A DNA stretch of 64,000 bases, from the IMG/VR virus record IMGVR_UViG_3300044971_001477, positions 1 to 64,000 of that record. One strand, given 5' to 3'. Each line of letters opens with the position of its first letter. Positions within the stretch are counted from its first letter, which is position 1. This document shows, piece after piece, positions 48,780-56,330 of this stretch. Under the pieces are notes generated by a model, which made no database searches, had not been told where the DNA came from, and saw nothing but the letters and a program-made list of their open reading frames with translations. This DNA comes from a virus. A program made the translations under genes and the position numbers.

Positions 48780-49514
48780 TTATTGTTTCATTGATAGTTT
48801 TTTATCAATAATTTTAGTTGGTAGGTCGTATAATTTTTCAATATAACCATTTCTTCTAAGGAGTTTAAATACCAAATTTTCTAAAGACATTTCACCACCT
48901 TTTTCTAATCCACAATTTCTAAAATTTTTTAATTTTTCTTTATATTTTTTTACAATATTTTTTATTTCTTCAGGGTCTTCGTCTTCTATGTTGTCAACAA
49001 CACCATCAATAATTCTCATCCATTGTTTGGATCTTTCTTTAATTAATTCTTTGTCTATAGTTTCTTTATTAATTTTTTTAGGTTCATTAATCCACATATC
49101 ATAAAGAATTGAATATACCCCACTACTAAATGCTTCTGTGTTTTCATCTTGAACAAAACACTCAACATCATACCCAAACATATTTATATTATGTTTTTGG
49201 TTAAAAATAATTTTTTTCAAATCAAAAAATTCTAAATACAAATCTTTGGTGTTTTCAGAAAATTGATTAAAATTTACAACAATATGTAAATCTATATCTG
49301 AATATTTTGACCAATTATAGTTAACAAGAGACCCAATCATTATAACATCTGATACAACAATATCTACTTTTAAAAACTCTATAAACTCATAAGCAATCTG
49401 AAGTAGACGTGACCTAACTTTAGGTGACATTTTTTTTAAAGAATCATCCCAAATTTTAGGGTTTAATTCCTCTTGCACCTGAAAACTAGTTAATATACTT
49501 TTTAAATCGCCCAT
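48780..49514 (-). CDS. Nucleotidyltransferase (pol-beta/MNT-like)
   Basis: 244 residues. The motif VIMIGSLVNYNWSKYSDIDLHIV is the GSx..N..S.SDiDlhi signature of the nucleotidyltransferase superfamily; the third carboxylate may be in FGYDVECFVQD. It would transfer an NMP to a protein, RNA or small molecule. Such phage enzymes may modify host machinery, but the substrate is unknown. The element TATTTATTA ends 5 nt before the start. Confidence 0.75.
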   Translation of the reverse strand: MGDLKSILTSFQVQEELNPKIWDDSLKKMSPKVRSRLLQIAYEFIEFLKVDIVVSDVIMIGSLVNYNWSKYSDIDLHIVVNFNQFSENTKDLYLEFFDLKKIIFNQKHNINMFGYDVECFVQDENTEAFSSGVYSILYDMWINEPKKINKETIDKELIKERSKQWMRIIDGVVDNIEDEDPEEIKNIVKKYKEKLKNFRNCGLEKGGEMSLENLVFKLLRRNGYIEKLYDLPTKIIDKKLSMKQ

Positions 49515-50189: not shown

Positions 50190-52232
50190 ATGATAGAATC
50201 TGTGGACAACGGGGGGAAGAATAACCCACCTAAATCAATATCTGACTCTTCAACACCTGTGTTGGATAACTTCAGTAGAGATTTAATTAAATTAGCCGAA
50301 CAAGGTAAATTAGACCCTGTTGTTGGTAGAGAGAGAGAAATTACGAGGATTGCCCAAATTCTTTCTCGTAGAAAGAAAAACAACCCTATTATTATTGGTG
50401 AGCCTGGTTGTGGTAAAACTGCAATTGTAGAAGGATTGGCAATTAAAATTTTTAACGGCGAATGTCCAAGAAATTTAATGGATAAAAGAATTGTATCGTT
50501 GGATATGACTTCAATAGTTGCGGGTACAAAATATCGTGGTCAGTTTGAGGAACGTATGAAAGTAATTATTGAGGAATTACAAAACGCCCCAAATATCATT
50601 GTGTTTATTGATGAGATTCACACTATAGTTGGGGCGGGTAATTCATCAGGTTCTTTAGATGCGTCAAATATCTTTAAACCAGCACTTGCTCGTGGAGAAA
50701 TTCAATGTGTTGGTGCTACAACTCTTGATGAGTATCGTAAAAACTTTGAGAAGGATGGAGCGTTAGAAAGACGTTTCCAAAAAGTTATTGTTGACGCTTC
50801 AACAAAAGAAGAAACATTAGAGATTCTTAAAAATGTTAAAGATAAGTACGAAACATTCCATAAGGTATCCTATACTGATGAAGTACTTTCTGTGTGTGTT
50901 GATTTGGCCGCAAGATATATCACGGATAGAGAGTTCCCTGATAAAGCGTTTGATATTATTGATGAGGTTGGTGCAAGATGTCAGGTTGAAATTAAAATGC
51001 CTGAGATTATTGAAAAATTAAAACAAGCGGCCACAGATGTTAAAATTGAAAAACTTGATGTTGTTAAAAAACAAAATTACGAAGAAGCTGCAAATTTACG
51101 TGATAAAGAAAAACGTATTCTTAATAAATTAGATGTTGAGAAGAAAAAATTTGAAGATGAACTTTTAGTTAAGAAGAAAGAAGTTTCTATTGAATTGGTT
51201 TATGAGGTTGTTTCAAATATGACCAAAATCCCTATCAGTAAACTAAATGCGGATGAAACTAAATTATTGTCTGAAATGGAGGCAAACTTATCTGATAAAG
51301 TTATTGGGCAATCTGAGGCGGTTATGAAAATCGCTAAGTCAATCAGACGAAACAGATTAGGCATCAAAGACCCTAATAAACCAATTGGTTCATTTATTTT
51401 TCTTGGTTCAACAGGTGTGGGTAAAACCTACTTAGCAAAACAATTAGCAAAACAAATGTTTGGTAGTCAGGAAAATATGATTCGTGTAGATATGTCTGAA
51501 TATCAAGAAAAACATAGTATCTCAAGATTAATTGGAGCACCTCCAGGATATGTTGGTTATGATGAAGGAGGACAATTAACCGAACAAGTTAAAAACAAAC
51601 CTTACTCAGTAATTTTGTTTGATGAGATTGAAAAAGCAAACAAAGACATATTCTCAACATTATTACAAGTGTTGGATGACGGTCATCTAACTGATGGTAT
51701 GGGAAGAAAGATTAATTTCAAAAACTGTATTATTATTATGACATCAAATGTTGGGGTTAAGAAACTACAAGATTTTGGTGCTGGAGTAGGGTTTAAAACT
51801 AGCTCAAGTTCTTACGTTGAAGAAGAACAAAAAAGAGAAGTTTTGAAGAAAGAGCTTAAGAAGTTTTTTGCCCCTGAATTTTTAAACCGTATTGATGAAG
51901 TCATTATTTTTAATTCATTAGTGAAAGAAGATGTTAAAAAAATTGTTAAACTTGAGTTGAGTGTCTTATCAGAAAGATTAACGGGTCTTAAATATAATAT
52001 AATATTTGATGACTCACTTGTCGATATGATTTCTGAGGTTGGGTTTGATGACATGTATGGGGCTCGTCCATTGAAAAGGGCTATTCAAGATAAAATTGAA
52101 GACTTTATATCGGAAGAAGTTCTTAAGAGTAACATTCAAGAAAACACTAAATATACGTTAATTAGTGAAAATGGGGATGTTAAATTTAAAGAAGTGAAGA
52201 AAGTTACACGAAAAAGAAAAGGGGTTGAATAA
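50190..52232 (+). CDS. ClpC/ClpA-like AAA+ unfoldase without N-terminal domain
   Basis: 680 residues. Two AAA+ modules: Walker A1 GEPGCGKTA (~70-78), Walker B1 IIVFIDEIH, pore loop KYRGQFE; then Walker A2 GSTGVGKTY (406-414), Walker B2 VILFDEIE, pore loop GYVG (453-456). Between them a short UVR-like segment (KKQNYEEAANLRDKEKRI, ~293-310) as in ClpC, not the long ClpB middle domain. VGF at 533-535 fits the ClpP-binding loop. The usual ~140-residue N-domain that takes adaptors is absent. It probably unfolds proteins for the host ClpP, including those tagged by the nearby tmRNA. Host-like -7 box TACCTTTG about 55 nt upstream. Confidence 0.9.
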   Translation: MIESVDNGGKNNPPKSISDSSTPVLDNFSRDLIKLAEQGKLDPVVGREREITRIAQILSRRKKNNPIIIGEPGCGKTAIVEGLAIKIFNGECPRNLMDKRIVSLDMTSIVAGTKYRGQFEERMKVIIEELQNAPNIIVFIDEIHTIVGAGNSSGSLDASNIFKPALARGEIQCVGATTLDEYRKNFEKDGALERRFQKVIVDASTKEETLEILKNVKDKYETFHKVSYTDEVLSVCVDLAARYITDREFPDKAFDIIDEVGARCQVEIKMPEIIEKLKQAATDVKIEKLDVVKKQNYEEAANLRDKEKRILNKLDVEKKKFEDELLVKKKEVSIELVYEVVSNMTKIPISKLNADETKLLSEMEANLSDKVIGQSEAVMKIAKSIRRNRLGIKDPNKPIGSFIFLGSTGVGKTYLAKQLAKQMFGSQENMIRVDMSEYQEKHSISRLIGAPPGYVGYDEGGQLTEQVKNKPYSVILFDEIEKANKDIFSTLLQVLDDGHLTDGMGRKINFKNCIIIMTSNVGVKKLQDFGAGVGFKTSSSSYVEEEQKREVLKKELKKFFAPEFLNRIDEVIIFNSLVKEDVKKIVKLELSVLSERLTGLKYNIIFDDSLVDMISEVGFDDMYGARPLKRAIQDKIEDFISEEVLKSNIQENTKYTLISENGDVKFKEVKKVTRKRKGVE

Positions 52233-52430: not shown

Positions 52431-53261
52431 TTAGTCAAATAAATAACTGTATCGTGGTTTTGATTTGAATGGGTATTTTACGTTACCCAATTTTTCAATT
52501 AATTCTTTACCCGTTTTAATTCCGTTATAAACATCCTCAATAACCACATATTCTTCTCTTGTGTGGTAATCATAGTACCCAATTGAGAAGTTAATACATG
52601 AGAAGTCAAATGTATTCTTCAATGCGTAAACATCGGTATATGGGTGAGACTGATATTTTCTGTCAGGATTAAATGTTTCGGTTAATACCTCATCACACGA
52701 TTTAAAAAACTCGGTGTCTCTACCAAATAACTGAACACCCATACAGAACTCACTAACCATCCAATTCTCAGGTGCATCAAATTGAATTCCGTACCCTACG
52801 TTCTTGAAGAAATCTTTATCGGCTTGTTTTGAACCGTGACAACCTGTTTCTTCAGAAACAAAAAATGCTGCTTTAAGATTTGGTAATTCTTTTAATAATT
52901 CTAAACATGCATAAACGCCACATTTATCATCACCACCAATTCCTGTTGATTGTCCTAAATCGTTGAACGCTTTTAAAGATGGTTTAATTACTCCCTGAGC
53001 GTTAGGTAATTCCATTTCTTTGACGTTTATAACATCTAATTGATGTACGGTGTCAGTATGGGCAATAACACACGGGAAAAAGAAATCTTCAGTAATATCC
53101 TGAGATGTTTTAGTTGCGTAAATGTTTCGGTGTTTGTCAACTTGAAATGGTATTTGGTTTTCAGTTAACCAATTAACTAAAAACTCAATCATTCGGTCTT
53201 CCTTATATGTCTTTGTTGGGACCGACAAAACGTCCTTTAGTAATTGATAGTTTCTCTCCAT
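52431..53261 (-). CDS. M20/M28-like zinc peptidase (peptidase T-like catalytic domain)
   Basis: 276 residues. Metal-ligand motifs: VIAHTDTVHQL (HxD), GIGGDDKCGVYACLELL (Asp), FVSEETGCHGSKQ (EE), QFDAPENW (Asp) and YHTREEY (His). The spacing fits the catalytic domain of the peptidase T/M20 group; the ~100-residue dimerisation lid of full enzymes (about 400 residues) is missing. A host-type promoter ends 4 nt before the ATG, so the message would be leaderless. Substrate unknown; perhaps recycling peptides from proteolysis. Confidence 0.8.
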   Translation of the reverse strand: MERNYQLLKDVLSVPTKTYKEDRMIEFLVNWLTENQIPFQVDKHRNIYATKTSQDITEDFFFPCVIAHTDTVHQLDVINVKEMELPNAQGVIKPSLKAFNDLGQSTGIGGDDKCGVYACLELLKELPNLKAAFFVSEETGCHGSKQADKDFFKNVGYGIQFDAPENWMVSEFCMGVQLFGRDTEFFKSCDEVLTETFNPDRKYQSHPYTDVYALKNTFDFSCINFSIGYYDYHTREEYVVIEDVYNGIKTGKELIEKLGNVKYPFKSKPRYSYLFD

Positions 53262-53265
53262 AGGC

Positions 53266-53297
53266 CAAAGATAAGTAAATTACTTGACTTTGACAAA
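53266..53297 (-). promoter_or_regulatory. Host-type promoter, TTTG-N20-TATCTTTG
   Basis: -33 TTTG at 53294-53297 and -7 TATCTTTG at 53266-53273. Only 4 nt separate the -7 box from the ATG at 53261. Confidence 0.75.
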
Positions 53298-54644
53298 TTT
53301 ATTTTCAAATAATTCCGATTGATGTAAAAGTTGGTCAAAGTCTTCAAAATCATAACTTCTTTCTTCTCCACGATACCCACCTTTTAATGAAACCACAACA
53401 TGGACTTTATTTGTTTTTGGGTTCATTTTAACTATTTTAAAATTTCTTGATTCGTCTTTGGGTAATTTGTAATTAGTTTCCATATCGTACTTACTTAAAA
53501 TTTTTGACGCATTATCTGAGAATTTTTTAATATCCTCAAATTCGTCAGAGTCTTCAAGTTTAGTAAACATATTATCTAATTGCCAACCACAAGTACGATT
53601 AAATGATTCATCATCAAAATCAATACAATCTTGTTCATAAGAATATTCTTCCCATCCACCAATATTGCCTGATTTATGTCCAATATCACTTAAAACCTCA
53701 CTAACCGTTAAATGTCTTTCTCCCGTCATTGAATATAAAGATAATAACACCGATACTGTCGTCACATAACTATAAAAACAATTTCCCATATTGAATATTC
53801 CATAATTTTGGAAAAAATTACAACAGTCGTCTTCCATCATCTTACGGGCACCTCGTTCTTTACAGTTATTTCTTTCTGACAACCAATCAGACATAATTTC
53901 CTGAGATTCACGTTCAAATGTTGTTAATAATAAACTAGACGATTTTTCCCATTCTTCATCATTTCGTAATTGTGAAAGTTCTGGTGATAGTATTTTTAAA
54001 ATTTCTTTTAATTTAATTAGGTTTTCATCATTTAATTCACGTAATAAATAACCTCTTTTCCAATCCTCATCAACAAAATCTCCACTTTCAAAATCGTAGG
54101 ACTCATAATTAGAATATACGTAATTTGCAAACCAAATATCTCCATCAGATAGGTCAAATAATTTCCAATAATCCTCATAATTGTCAAATTTTAATTTAAC
54201 TCTACTCTTACCCGGTGTTTGTTCATTAAATTTGATGTCATATACGATTGGGTCAAAGTTATTAGCGTCCCAGTTATTTACCTTTTGACCATTTTTAATT
54301 TTCAATAACAAATCATATATTTCACTATTTCCTCTAATATCTTGGACATAGGGTTTTAAGTACGGATACTTAAATGTGATGTTATCGTAACTTTCAAGTT
54401 TTAATTCAATACCTGAATAGTATTCAAGTTCACCGTCTGTAGGTTTGTATAGTGTATATATATATTCAGGGCCAGGATTAAATTTACTTACGGCAAAAAA
54501 TAATTCACCATGACTAAAATCTCGGTCATATAATTCAGTAACTTTTGGAGGTCCGTAATATGTGGCCGCGTTCTTGTTGAACACCTGTACAAATACAACA
54601 TACTCGTTTTCAAATATTATTTTAGCATTTTTTGAATCTTTCAC
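53280..54644 (-). CDS. Hypothetical Tyr/Asp-rich protein (GTG start)
   Basis: 454 residues; GTG start at 54644 because the only nearby ATG is followed by a stop. Rich in Asp, Glu, Tyr and Phe (YSNYESYDFESGDFVDEDWK). It has a mid Cys cluster (CKERGARKMMEDDCCNFFQN) and a C-terminal RNFKIVKMNPKTNKVHVVVS segment. No domain recognised. A late-type element precedes the start by 14 nt; the gene is next to the tmRNA on the opposite strand. Confidence 0.6.
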   Translation of the reverse strand: MKDSKNAKIIFENEYVVFVQVFNKNAATYYGPPKVTELYDRDFSHGELFFAVSKFNPGPEYIYTLYKPTDGELEYYSGIELKLESYDNITFKYPYLKPYVQDIRGNSEIYDLLLKIKNGQKVNNWDANNFDPIVYDIKFNEQTPGKSRVKLKFDNYEDYWKLFDLSDGDIWFANYVYSNYESYDFESGDFVDEDWKRGYLLRELNDENLIKLKEILKILSPELSQLRNDEEWEKSSSLLLTTFERESQEIMSDWLSERNNCKERGARKMMEDDCCNFFQNYGIFNMGNCFYSYVTTVSVLLSLYSMTGERHLTVSEVLSDIGHKSGNIGGWEEYSYEQDCIDFDDESFNRTCGWQLDNMFTKLEDSDEFEDIKKFSDNASKILSKYDMETNYKLPKDESRNFKIVKMNPKTNKVHVVVSLKGGYRGEERSYDFEDFDQLLHQSELFENKFVKVK

Positions 54645-54675: not shown

Positions 54676-54706
54676 TTTGGTAATTAATAAGACTTTACTA
54701 TCTTTG
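54676..54706 (+). promoter_or_regulatory. Host-type promoter for tmRNA, TTTG-N19-TATCTTTG
   Basis: -33 TTTG at 54676-54679 and -7 TATCTTTG at 54699-54706, spacer exactly 19. It is followed at 54719-54730 by GTTCTTTAAAAT, which looks like boxA, and then the tmRNA 5' end. Confidence 0.8.
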
Positions 54707-54732: not shown

Positions 54733-55119
54733 GGGGGTAACTTGGAATTGACTGGCATTGTTAGTTATTCGGGGCACGCAGTGAGATGTATCCTTTCACT
54801 TAAATCTACGGATGTAAACAGTAAACGGAAACGTTTTAAACAAAATGGCGACAATCGGATTAATCCGTGAAGACGCTGCGGTAGTTGCCTAACATATAGG
54901 AAACAACCATACGGGTCGGTGGACATACAACCTAGGAACAGAAGTCTTTACAAGGGTGGAAAAATGACTGAACCCAAAATTGAGTCATCCATTGGTTGTT
55001 AGTTTACGATGGTGAAGAACGAACTAACTATTTTTGGAACATTAGAAAATGTTATCCTAAGCGTGTAGTCCTTAATAGGTAAGGTGTACAACACGAGGGT
55101 TCGAACCCCTCTACCTCCA
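54733..55119 (+). ncRNA. ssrA: tmRNA (trans-translation RNA)
   Basis: 387 nt. The 5' GGGGGTA pairs with 3' TACCTCC to form the acceptor stem, including the G3-U70 wobble that marks alanine, with A73 as discriminator. The T-arm is GAGGG-TTCGAAC-CCCTC. The tag reading frame probably resumes at GCG 54848 and gives ATIGLIREDAAVVA, stop TAA at 54890. The ending AAVVA differs from the common ALAA of bacteria but keeps small hydrophobic residues. CCA is not encoded. It rescues stalled ribosomes and marks products for proteases; here it is likely coupled to the phage ClpC-like unfoldase. Confidence 0.93.
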
Positions 55120-55125
55120 CTAATT

Positions 55126-55157
55126 AAACCTCATCTTAAAAAGGTGGGGTTTTTTTA
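55126..55157 (+). terminator. Terminator of tmRNA
   Basis: Stem AAACCTCA / TGGGGTTT with T-run, 7 nt after the tmRNA 3' end. Confidence 0.85.
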
Positions 55158-55193
55158 TACACATAAATTAAATTACAAAACTTTTTTTAAAAT

Positions 55194-55222
55194 AAAAAAA
55201 CCCCAAGATTATTGAGGTTTGA
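55194..55222 (-). terminator. Terminator of the large noncoding RNA
   Basis: Minus-strand stem AAACCTCAATAATCTTGGGGTTT followed by a run of T. It is back to back with the tmRNA terminator. Confidence 0.8.
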
Positions 55223-56141
55223 TTAAAAATCGTATTCTATATATTGGGTAATTTTAAAAAGGGCTGAGAATACACCGTTTTGTGAGAATCTTTAGAAGGA
55301 TTATTGTTTCCCTTCATTTCCACCATCTTTTGAATGGTAATCCTCATCGCCGATTGGTTAGACCAATCACTTCTTAAGGTTTTAACTACTCTATTACTAC
55401 TCTACTCTCCTCAATCTTGCGAACTGACTTAGGATTCGACTCCTTAGAGGTTTTTGGTAACAATATACGTTGACTTGCGGTCTCGGTATGCCATGAACAA
55501 CTCATGACTATGTAGGCGACTTTCATCAAAACCTGACGAACACTTTTGCTTATAGTTATTTTAGTTTTACTTAAATTTAGTATAAGTTATGTGTTGTGGA
55601 TGATTCCAAGTAGAGGTCCGTCTTAAGCCTCGTTGTCTTTTGAACAACAAGATACTTTTCTACTCGGTAGAGTGTCCCCACTCTCATATTTTAAGATTAC
55701 TTCGTACCAAGACCTTGGTGGGTCTGTGGTAAGGATATTAGCGACACCACTCGTTCTCTATCTTACCTTCAGGTTTTATCCCTTCGGTTTTAAGTCACCT
55801 CTTATATTGGGACCCGCAATTGTGTATTTGGAGTACACTTCTCACTTGGCCCCTATGGGTTATTCTTATTGGTGTTCCCACCTCAAACTGACAATCCACA
55901 TTGCCCGTTCAGTTTTCCATTTCCCTACGAAGTTATCCTCGGTACTACAGGCTCACTGATATCCCACTTGTATACTCGAGTTCGGTTACCCGAACCGCAA
56001 AACCATTAACACGATGATTTCACTTTATCCCCCTTTCGAGGTTTATTTAACGACCATATACGGCCGATTATCTTTTATACAACACCGAAGTGTTGTAATG
56101 GATAATAATATTTCAAAGAACGTTTCGGACTCTTCCGATTT
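55195..56141 (-). ncRNA. Large ornate noncoding RNA (GOLLD/ROOL-like class candidate)
   Basis: About 945 nt between a triple promoter array and a terminator, without a credible protein. Many compact hairpins are visible: ACAACAC-TTCG-GTGTTGT (56079-56096), CCTC-GAAA-GGGG (~56029-56042), GTTCGG-GTAA-CCGAAC (55980-55995), GGTG-GGAA-CACC, AGAGTG-GGGA-CACTCT and a T-arm-like AGGA-GTCGAA-TCCT. The number of GNRA and UUCG tetraloops is typical of a folded structural RNA. Length, position beside tRNAs/tmRNA, and phage setting match the GOLLD (~800 nt) and ROOL classes; the exact family is not verified. The leader has a boxA-like GTTCTTTGAAAT at 56110-56121. Confidence 0.75.
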
Positions 56142-56147
56142 GTTTTA

Positions 56148-56179
56148 CAAAGATAAGTAAACTTTTTCAATTTACCAAA
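56148..56179 (-). promoter_or_regulatory. Host-type promoter 1 for the large noncoding RNA (proximal)
   Basis: -7 TATCTTTG at 56148-56155 and -33 TTTG at 56176-56179, spacer 20. First of three near-identical units of about 90 bp. Confidence 0.75.
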
Positions 56180-56236
56180 TCTTTTTTTATTTTTTTTAAA
56201 GATTTGTATCTGAATCGTTATCTATCTCTTTTGTTG

Positions 56237-56268
56237 TACAAAGATAAGTAAACTTTTTCGATTTACCA
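56237..56268 (-). promoter_or_regulatory. Host-type promoter 2 (repeat copy)
   Basis: TATCTTTG at 56237-56244 with TTTG at 56265-56268; same flanks (GTTTACTTATCTTTGTACAA) as copy 3. Confidence 0.7.
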
Positions 56269-56330
56269 AATCTTTTTTTATTTTTTTTTTAAGATTTGTA
56301 TCTGAATTGTTATCTATCTCTTTTGTTGTA

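Follow-up and report, generated by a model that had tools for sequence, protein, structure and literature searches.

A one-piece phage tmRNA with a long, conserved, host-unlike tag, linked to a ClpC-like gene in a lineage that probably infects Bacteroidota

The stretch of viral DNA considered here (the window; 64,000 nucleotides of the IMG/VR record IMGVR_UViG_3300044971_001477) contains a tmRNA gene between matches to a promoter and a terminator, accompanied on one side by genes for a ClpC-like unfoldase and a metallopeptidase homolog and on the other by a GOLLD RNA. Its features, with strand, are the following.

50190-52232 (+), phage ClpC-like double-AAA+ unfoldase of 680 aa without N-domain (aligns to residues 152-805 of S. 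aureus ClpC, E 1e-222)
52431-53261 (-), homolog of M20/M42-like metallopeptidases, between ClpC and the tmRNA (phrog_4191, E 4e-37; Pfam match below cut-off)
54676-54706 (+), Bacteroidota-type promoter of the tmRNA, TTTG-N19-TATCTTTG (pattern match; -7 box in homologs)
54733-55122 (+), tmRNA (ssrA) gene (full-length RF00023 match; covarying stems; about 70 distinct homologs)
54733-54739 (+), 5' strand of the acceptor stem, GGGGGUA, carrying G3 of the G3-U70 alanyl determinant (from the sequence)
54780-54815 (+), pseudoknot PK1, 5' of the resume codon (compensatory changes in both stems)
54827-54892 (+), tag reading frame with its stop, GNVLNKMATIGLIREDAAVVA and TAA (covariance alignment, A at -4, open frame)
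55112-55119 (+), 3' strand of the acceptor stem with discriminator A73 (from the sequence)
55126-55159 (+), intrinsic terminator for the tmRNA (stem of 12 bp with a T run; -14.7 kcal/mol, z -4.8)
55261-55667 (-), GOLLD RNA, convergent with the tmRNA (RF02032, 324 bits)

A covariance search of the window recovered a complete, one-piece tmRNA at 54733-55122 (+) with 72.1 bits (E 4e-26; score cut-off for RF00023, 47 bits), and this full-length match bears out the tmRNA call that a first-pass annotation had made from the sequence. The tRNA-like domain possesses G3-U70, A73 (at 55119) and the T-arm, while the 3' terminus after A73 reads CTA, so that CCA is not encoded by the gene and needs to be added. 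A homolog set was assembled from IMG/VR, first with the ClpC-like protein and the peptidase encoded nearby as baits and then with nhmmer; it gave a tmRNA match in 138 loci and 70 distinct full-length sequences, the window included. Several of these loci overlap or are near-identical, and locus counts are therefore not independent. A pattern back-translated from AAVVA was also tried on IMG/VR and dropped as too permissive.

Both the alanyl identity and the intact stems proposed in the first-pass annotation find support in this set. G3-U70 is present in 20/20 aligned homologs and the discriminator is A in 67 of the 70 distinct sequences; the acceptor helix is 93.5% paired among the aligned homologs, and the two stems of PK1 are paired in 83% (stem 1) and 65.5% (stem 2) of cells. 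Taken over the 29 named pairs of the acceptor, H2, T and PK1 stems in 20 aligned sequences, 88.4% are paired, and 19 of the 29 pairs have changed on both sides, a covariation score that was matched by 0 of 500 shuffles and by no slid control. The PK2-PK4 region lies inside the full-length RF00023 match and contains many mismatches. ARAGORN, by contrast, reported no tmRNA in the window and called only 8 of the 138 loci that are positive by homology search with the window tmRNA. Since it misses most of these genes, the abundance of tmRNAs in phages is underestimated by surveys that use it. A BLAST comparison of the tmRNA with INPHARED returned short matches only, mostly in the T-arm region.

Promoters of Bacteroidota follow the consensus TTTG/TAnnTTTG. 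Upstream of the tmRNA, pattern matching places the two boxes at 54676 (TTTG) and 54699-54706 (TATCTTTG), and a -7 box precedes the tmRNA in 60 of the 70 distinct homologs. The closest cellular relatives of the window ClpC (the best 80 among the matches listed) are all Bacteroidota, with 56-61% identity. Relatives and promoter type together point to a host among the Bacteroidota. A 454-aa protein encoded at 53280-54644 (-) adjoins the tmRNA and is without a family match in Pfam or PHROGs; farther away, at 48780-49514 (-), lies a protein with an NTP_transf_2 domain (Pfam score just above the cut-off), whose role is unassigned.

The GOLLD RNA on the other side is a frequent neighbour. Of the 102 loci that extend 4.5 kb or more downstream, 79 carry a convergent GOLLD, and at each of the 100 loci having both RNAs the two are convergent, about 0.4-7 kb apart. 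Two near-identical tandem matches to the Bacteroidota-type promoter (56148-56179 and 56239-56270, both (-)) and a terminator-like hairpin at 55220-55198 (-) accompany the GOLLD of the window, and their positions suggest a transcript of about 0.9 kb within 55198-56270 (-). The literature consulted on GOLLD places it near tRNA genes; a link to tmRNA was not found there.

The covariance fold that had been proposed as a check on the resume codon places it at GGA 54827-54829, with the TAA stop at 54890-54892, and ARAGORN sets the identical resume codon in tmRNAs of relatives. An A at -4 from a GGN resume codon is found in all 70 distinct homologs, with U or C at -5. The lineage thus shares the arrangement of E. 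coli tmRNA, where A86/U85 sets the frame (PMC2481249). With this resume codon the predicted tag is (A)GNVLNKMATIGLIREDAAVVA, the leading Ala being untemplated, and it comprises 21 codons rather than the 14 of the first-pass annotation; for reporter fusions it takes the form AGNVLNKMATIGLIREDAAVVA. That annotation had the frame, the AAVVA end (the window tag closes with REDAAVVA) and the TAA right, and was mistaken as to the beginning, which it set at the Ala codon at 54848, so that its ATIGLI... starts at codon eight. A host-like tag in another frame, which it had named as the outcome that would overturn its reading, is rejected on account of stop codons: of the 34 distinct cores of 45 nt, all contain stops in one alternative frame and 19 in the other, and none in the tag frame.

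Across the 70 homologs there are 30 distinct tag peptides, all of them 21-22 residues long, with an invariant internal GL and a final Ala; their C-termini are mostly xVA, and the conserved middle has the form K-[ML]-x3-G-L-[IV]-[RK]. In the 34 distinct cores pN/pS is 0.43 for the tag frame (pairwise counts, phylogeny uncorrected), and second codon positions are near-fixed; by the same kind of pairwise, phylogenetically uncorrected count, pN/pS is 0.33 in codons 1-7 and, over the final 6-7 codons, about 0.4. At the level of codon substitutions, the tag peptide has evolved under purifying selection across the viral lineage.

These data bear on several other uses of the reading frame. The tag could be the shorter ATIGLIREDAAVVA, or the frame an ordinary mini-ORF starting at ATG 54845, as the window carries an in-frame ATG there and so do 21 of the 34 distinct cores; the remaining 13 cores have CTT instead, so that the ATG is not conserved and a mini-ORF starting there is rejected, while the GGN codon is always retained and is fixed by the A at -4, and codons 1-7 are themselves under selection. 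We regard this reading as highly improbable. Alternatively, ribosome rescue alone might matter, with the tag serving as no degradation signal, and indeed the function of the E. coli tag was not critical in a phage propagation assay (PMC2481249); selection that extends over the C-terminus and an invariant final Ala make this explanation unlikely. Finally, a phage RNA consisting only of the tRNA-like domain (TLD), that of mycobacteriophage DS6A, inhibits tmRNA (PMC4131195, PMC11915505), and the RNA of the window might be a comparable decoy directed at host tmRNA. Its PK1, downstream domains, resume codon and selected tag would be hard to reconcile with such a role, to which we give very little credence.

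For comparison with cellular tags, 30 Bacteroidota genomes were drawn from the ClpC relatives, and 28 of them gave a readable tmRNA. All 28 tags are 9-10 codons long and end in ALAA or AMAA, an ending seen in none of the 30 phage tags. The uniformity of the cellular tags makes the contrast between phage and host a real one, and the view that the window tag, with its AAVVA, is not the ALAA-ended tag of Bacteroidota holds.

The ClpC-like protein, whose gene lies 2.5 kb from the tmRNA and is linked to it across the homologs found in the lineage, has two AAA+ domains, with pore loops GTKYRG and GYVG, an M-domain and a ClpP-docking tripeptide, read from the sequence as VGF, of which G and F are invariant in the alignment. 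As its alignment starts only at residue 152 of S. aureus ClpC, it is without the N-terminal adaptor-binding domain. The metallopeptidase homolog is likewise linked to the tmRNA in the homologs found, and from this linkage it may belong to the same pathway.

SmpB and ClpP are absent from the window's own record, a fragment of 66,753 bases. In 13 records examined, 12 of which measure 156-735 kb, SmpB is present in 9 and ClpP in 10, and in 38 loci SmpB is convergent with the tmRNA at a distance of 0.9-2.6 kb. The closest relatives of the window are fragments of at most 93 kb in which SmpB was not found; most of them are also without ClpP, which is present in a 91.5-kb relative whose tag differs by one residue. 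The genes for ClpP and ClpC are not adjacent. That the ClpP of these relatives is a prohead protease was considered and thought unlikely, as the protein matches PF00574 strongly and has catalytic motifs like those of ClpP. The 735-kb phage record LR756501, which shows weak DNA similarity to the window, carries SmpB and an AAA_2 gene; ClpP was not found in it, and its RF00023 matches are weak (best 28.7 bits, below the cut-off) and unconfirmed by the lineage profile or ARAGORN. A weak tmRNA-like match (21 bits) lies at 718388-718731 of LR756501.1.

We consider it very probable that these elements constitute a functional trans-translation system of the phage, with a degron specific to its lineage, which would be one of huge phages infecting Bacteroidota. 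According to this model, the tmRNA would be transcribed from the host-type promoter, charged with Ala via G3-U70, and would join stalled ribosomes together with SmpB, supplied by the host or, in some relatives, encoded by the phage itself. Once translation resumed at GGA 54827, the stalled chain would be extended by (A)GNVLNKMATIGLIREDAAVVA. The C-terminal xVA would act as degron, and the conserved middle probably offers an unfoldase or an adaptor a second site of recognition. The tmRNA would accordingly be expected to be active in infected cells and the tagged proteins to be degraded, most likely by a Clp machine, whether ClpXP of the host or ClpC and ClpP of the phage.

The first-pass annotation went from a different tag directly to a different protease or adaptor, a step that is unsupported as it was put. 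In E. coli and Salmonella the tag AANDENYALVA leads to efficient degradation, for which ClpXP is mainly responsible (PMC11003136); as an LVA-ended tag is thus a ClpXP degron, the V-A end is no sign of escape from ClpXP, and a different protease is not required. Furthermore, SmpB and ClpP were not found in the genomes of smaller Bacteroidota phages with divergent tags, so that tag divergence alone does not imply a phage protease. On both counts the phage tag could well be an ordinary degron for host ClpXP, in which xVA conservatively replaces LAA and the long body reflects drift or avoidance of host adaptors. This is an entirely plausible reading that stays short of probable, as drift leaves the length of 21-22 residues and the selected GL[IV][RK] centre unexplained, and as phage ClpC and ClpP do occur in the lineage.

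Those same genes keep open a second route, in which the tag is read by dedicated phage ClpC and ClpP within a largely autonomous pathway of trans-translation and degradation. The linked ClpC without an adaptor-binding domain, and the SmpB and ClpP (with catalytic residues) of the long relatives, are consistent with it. A precedent is found in Mesoplasma florum, whose ssrA tag is likewise long and divergent and is matched to another protease, Lon (PMC9382460); that tag is cellular and ends in NYAFA, and the match is experimental there and proposed here. Binding of the tag by ClpC is putative, however, the ClpP and ClpC genes stand apart, and LR756501 combines SmpB and an AAA_2 gene with no ClpP, so that we advance the dedicated route tentatively. 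Its broader form, that huge Bacteroidota phages run a quality control of their own in which phage ClpC/ClpP read the tag, apart from the host route of GENNYALAA and ClpXP, is a possibility we regard as rather doubtful.

Whichever protease is involved, the locus touches on the question of what a phage gains by replacing a rescue system that its host already has. A selected, host-unlike tag with a linked ClpC, and with ClpP and SmpB in the lineage, makes this question testable. The phage tag could also provide Bacteroidota genetics with a degron orthogonal to that of the host.

Among known systems, the ssrA of Bacteroidota (RF00023; tags such as GENNYALAA) resembles the window tmRNA in being one-piece, in G3-U70, the A at -4 and the Gly resume codon, and in the placement of PK1 and the promoter type; the phage tag differs from it in its 21-22 codons (9-10 in hosts), its xVA end (ALAA or AMAA in hosts) and its internal GL[IV][RK]. 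The divergent tags of tmRNAs from crAss-like phages and the cultured Chryseobacterium phage MA9V-3 (GNFYVTDYTRIAA, GNINVVDYTGLQEAA, GNVIDINKYVAKLEVAA), whose hosts are Bacteroidota, similarly start with Gly-Asn and lack the ALAA end, but they are shorter, with unrelated bodies ending in AA, and belong to genomes without SmpB or ClpP. Phage-encoded tmRNAs are also known from other hosts, in the mycobacteriophages Bxz1 and Wildcat and in Bacillus phage G (PMC4131195). Huge phages encoding both tmRNA and SmpB were reported by Al-Shayeb et al. 2020 (PMC7162821), in a survey that used ARAGORN, which misses the tmRNA of the window; the passages of that paper considered here say nothing on the tag, Clp or a protease. 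In PubMed Central, whose coverage leaves out most subscription papers, we found no description of the tag, nor of a phage set of tmRNA, SmpB and ClpP, of which Al-Shayeb et al. reported the first two. Phage tmRNAs (PMC4131195) and, since 2020, their combination with SmpB in huge phages (PMC7162821) are thus already known; what is new, as far as this literature shows, is a long tag kept by selection across a viral lineage, together with a linked ClpC gene of the phage and, in relatives, ClpP and SmpB.
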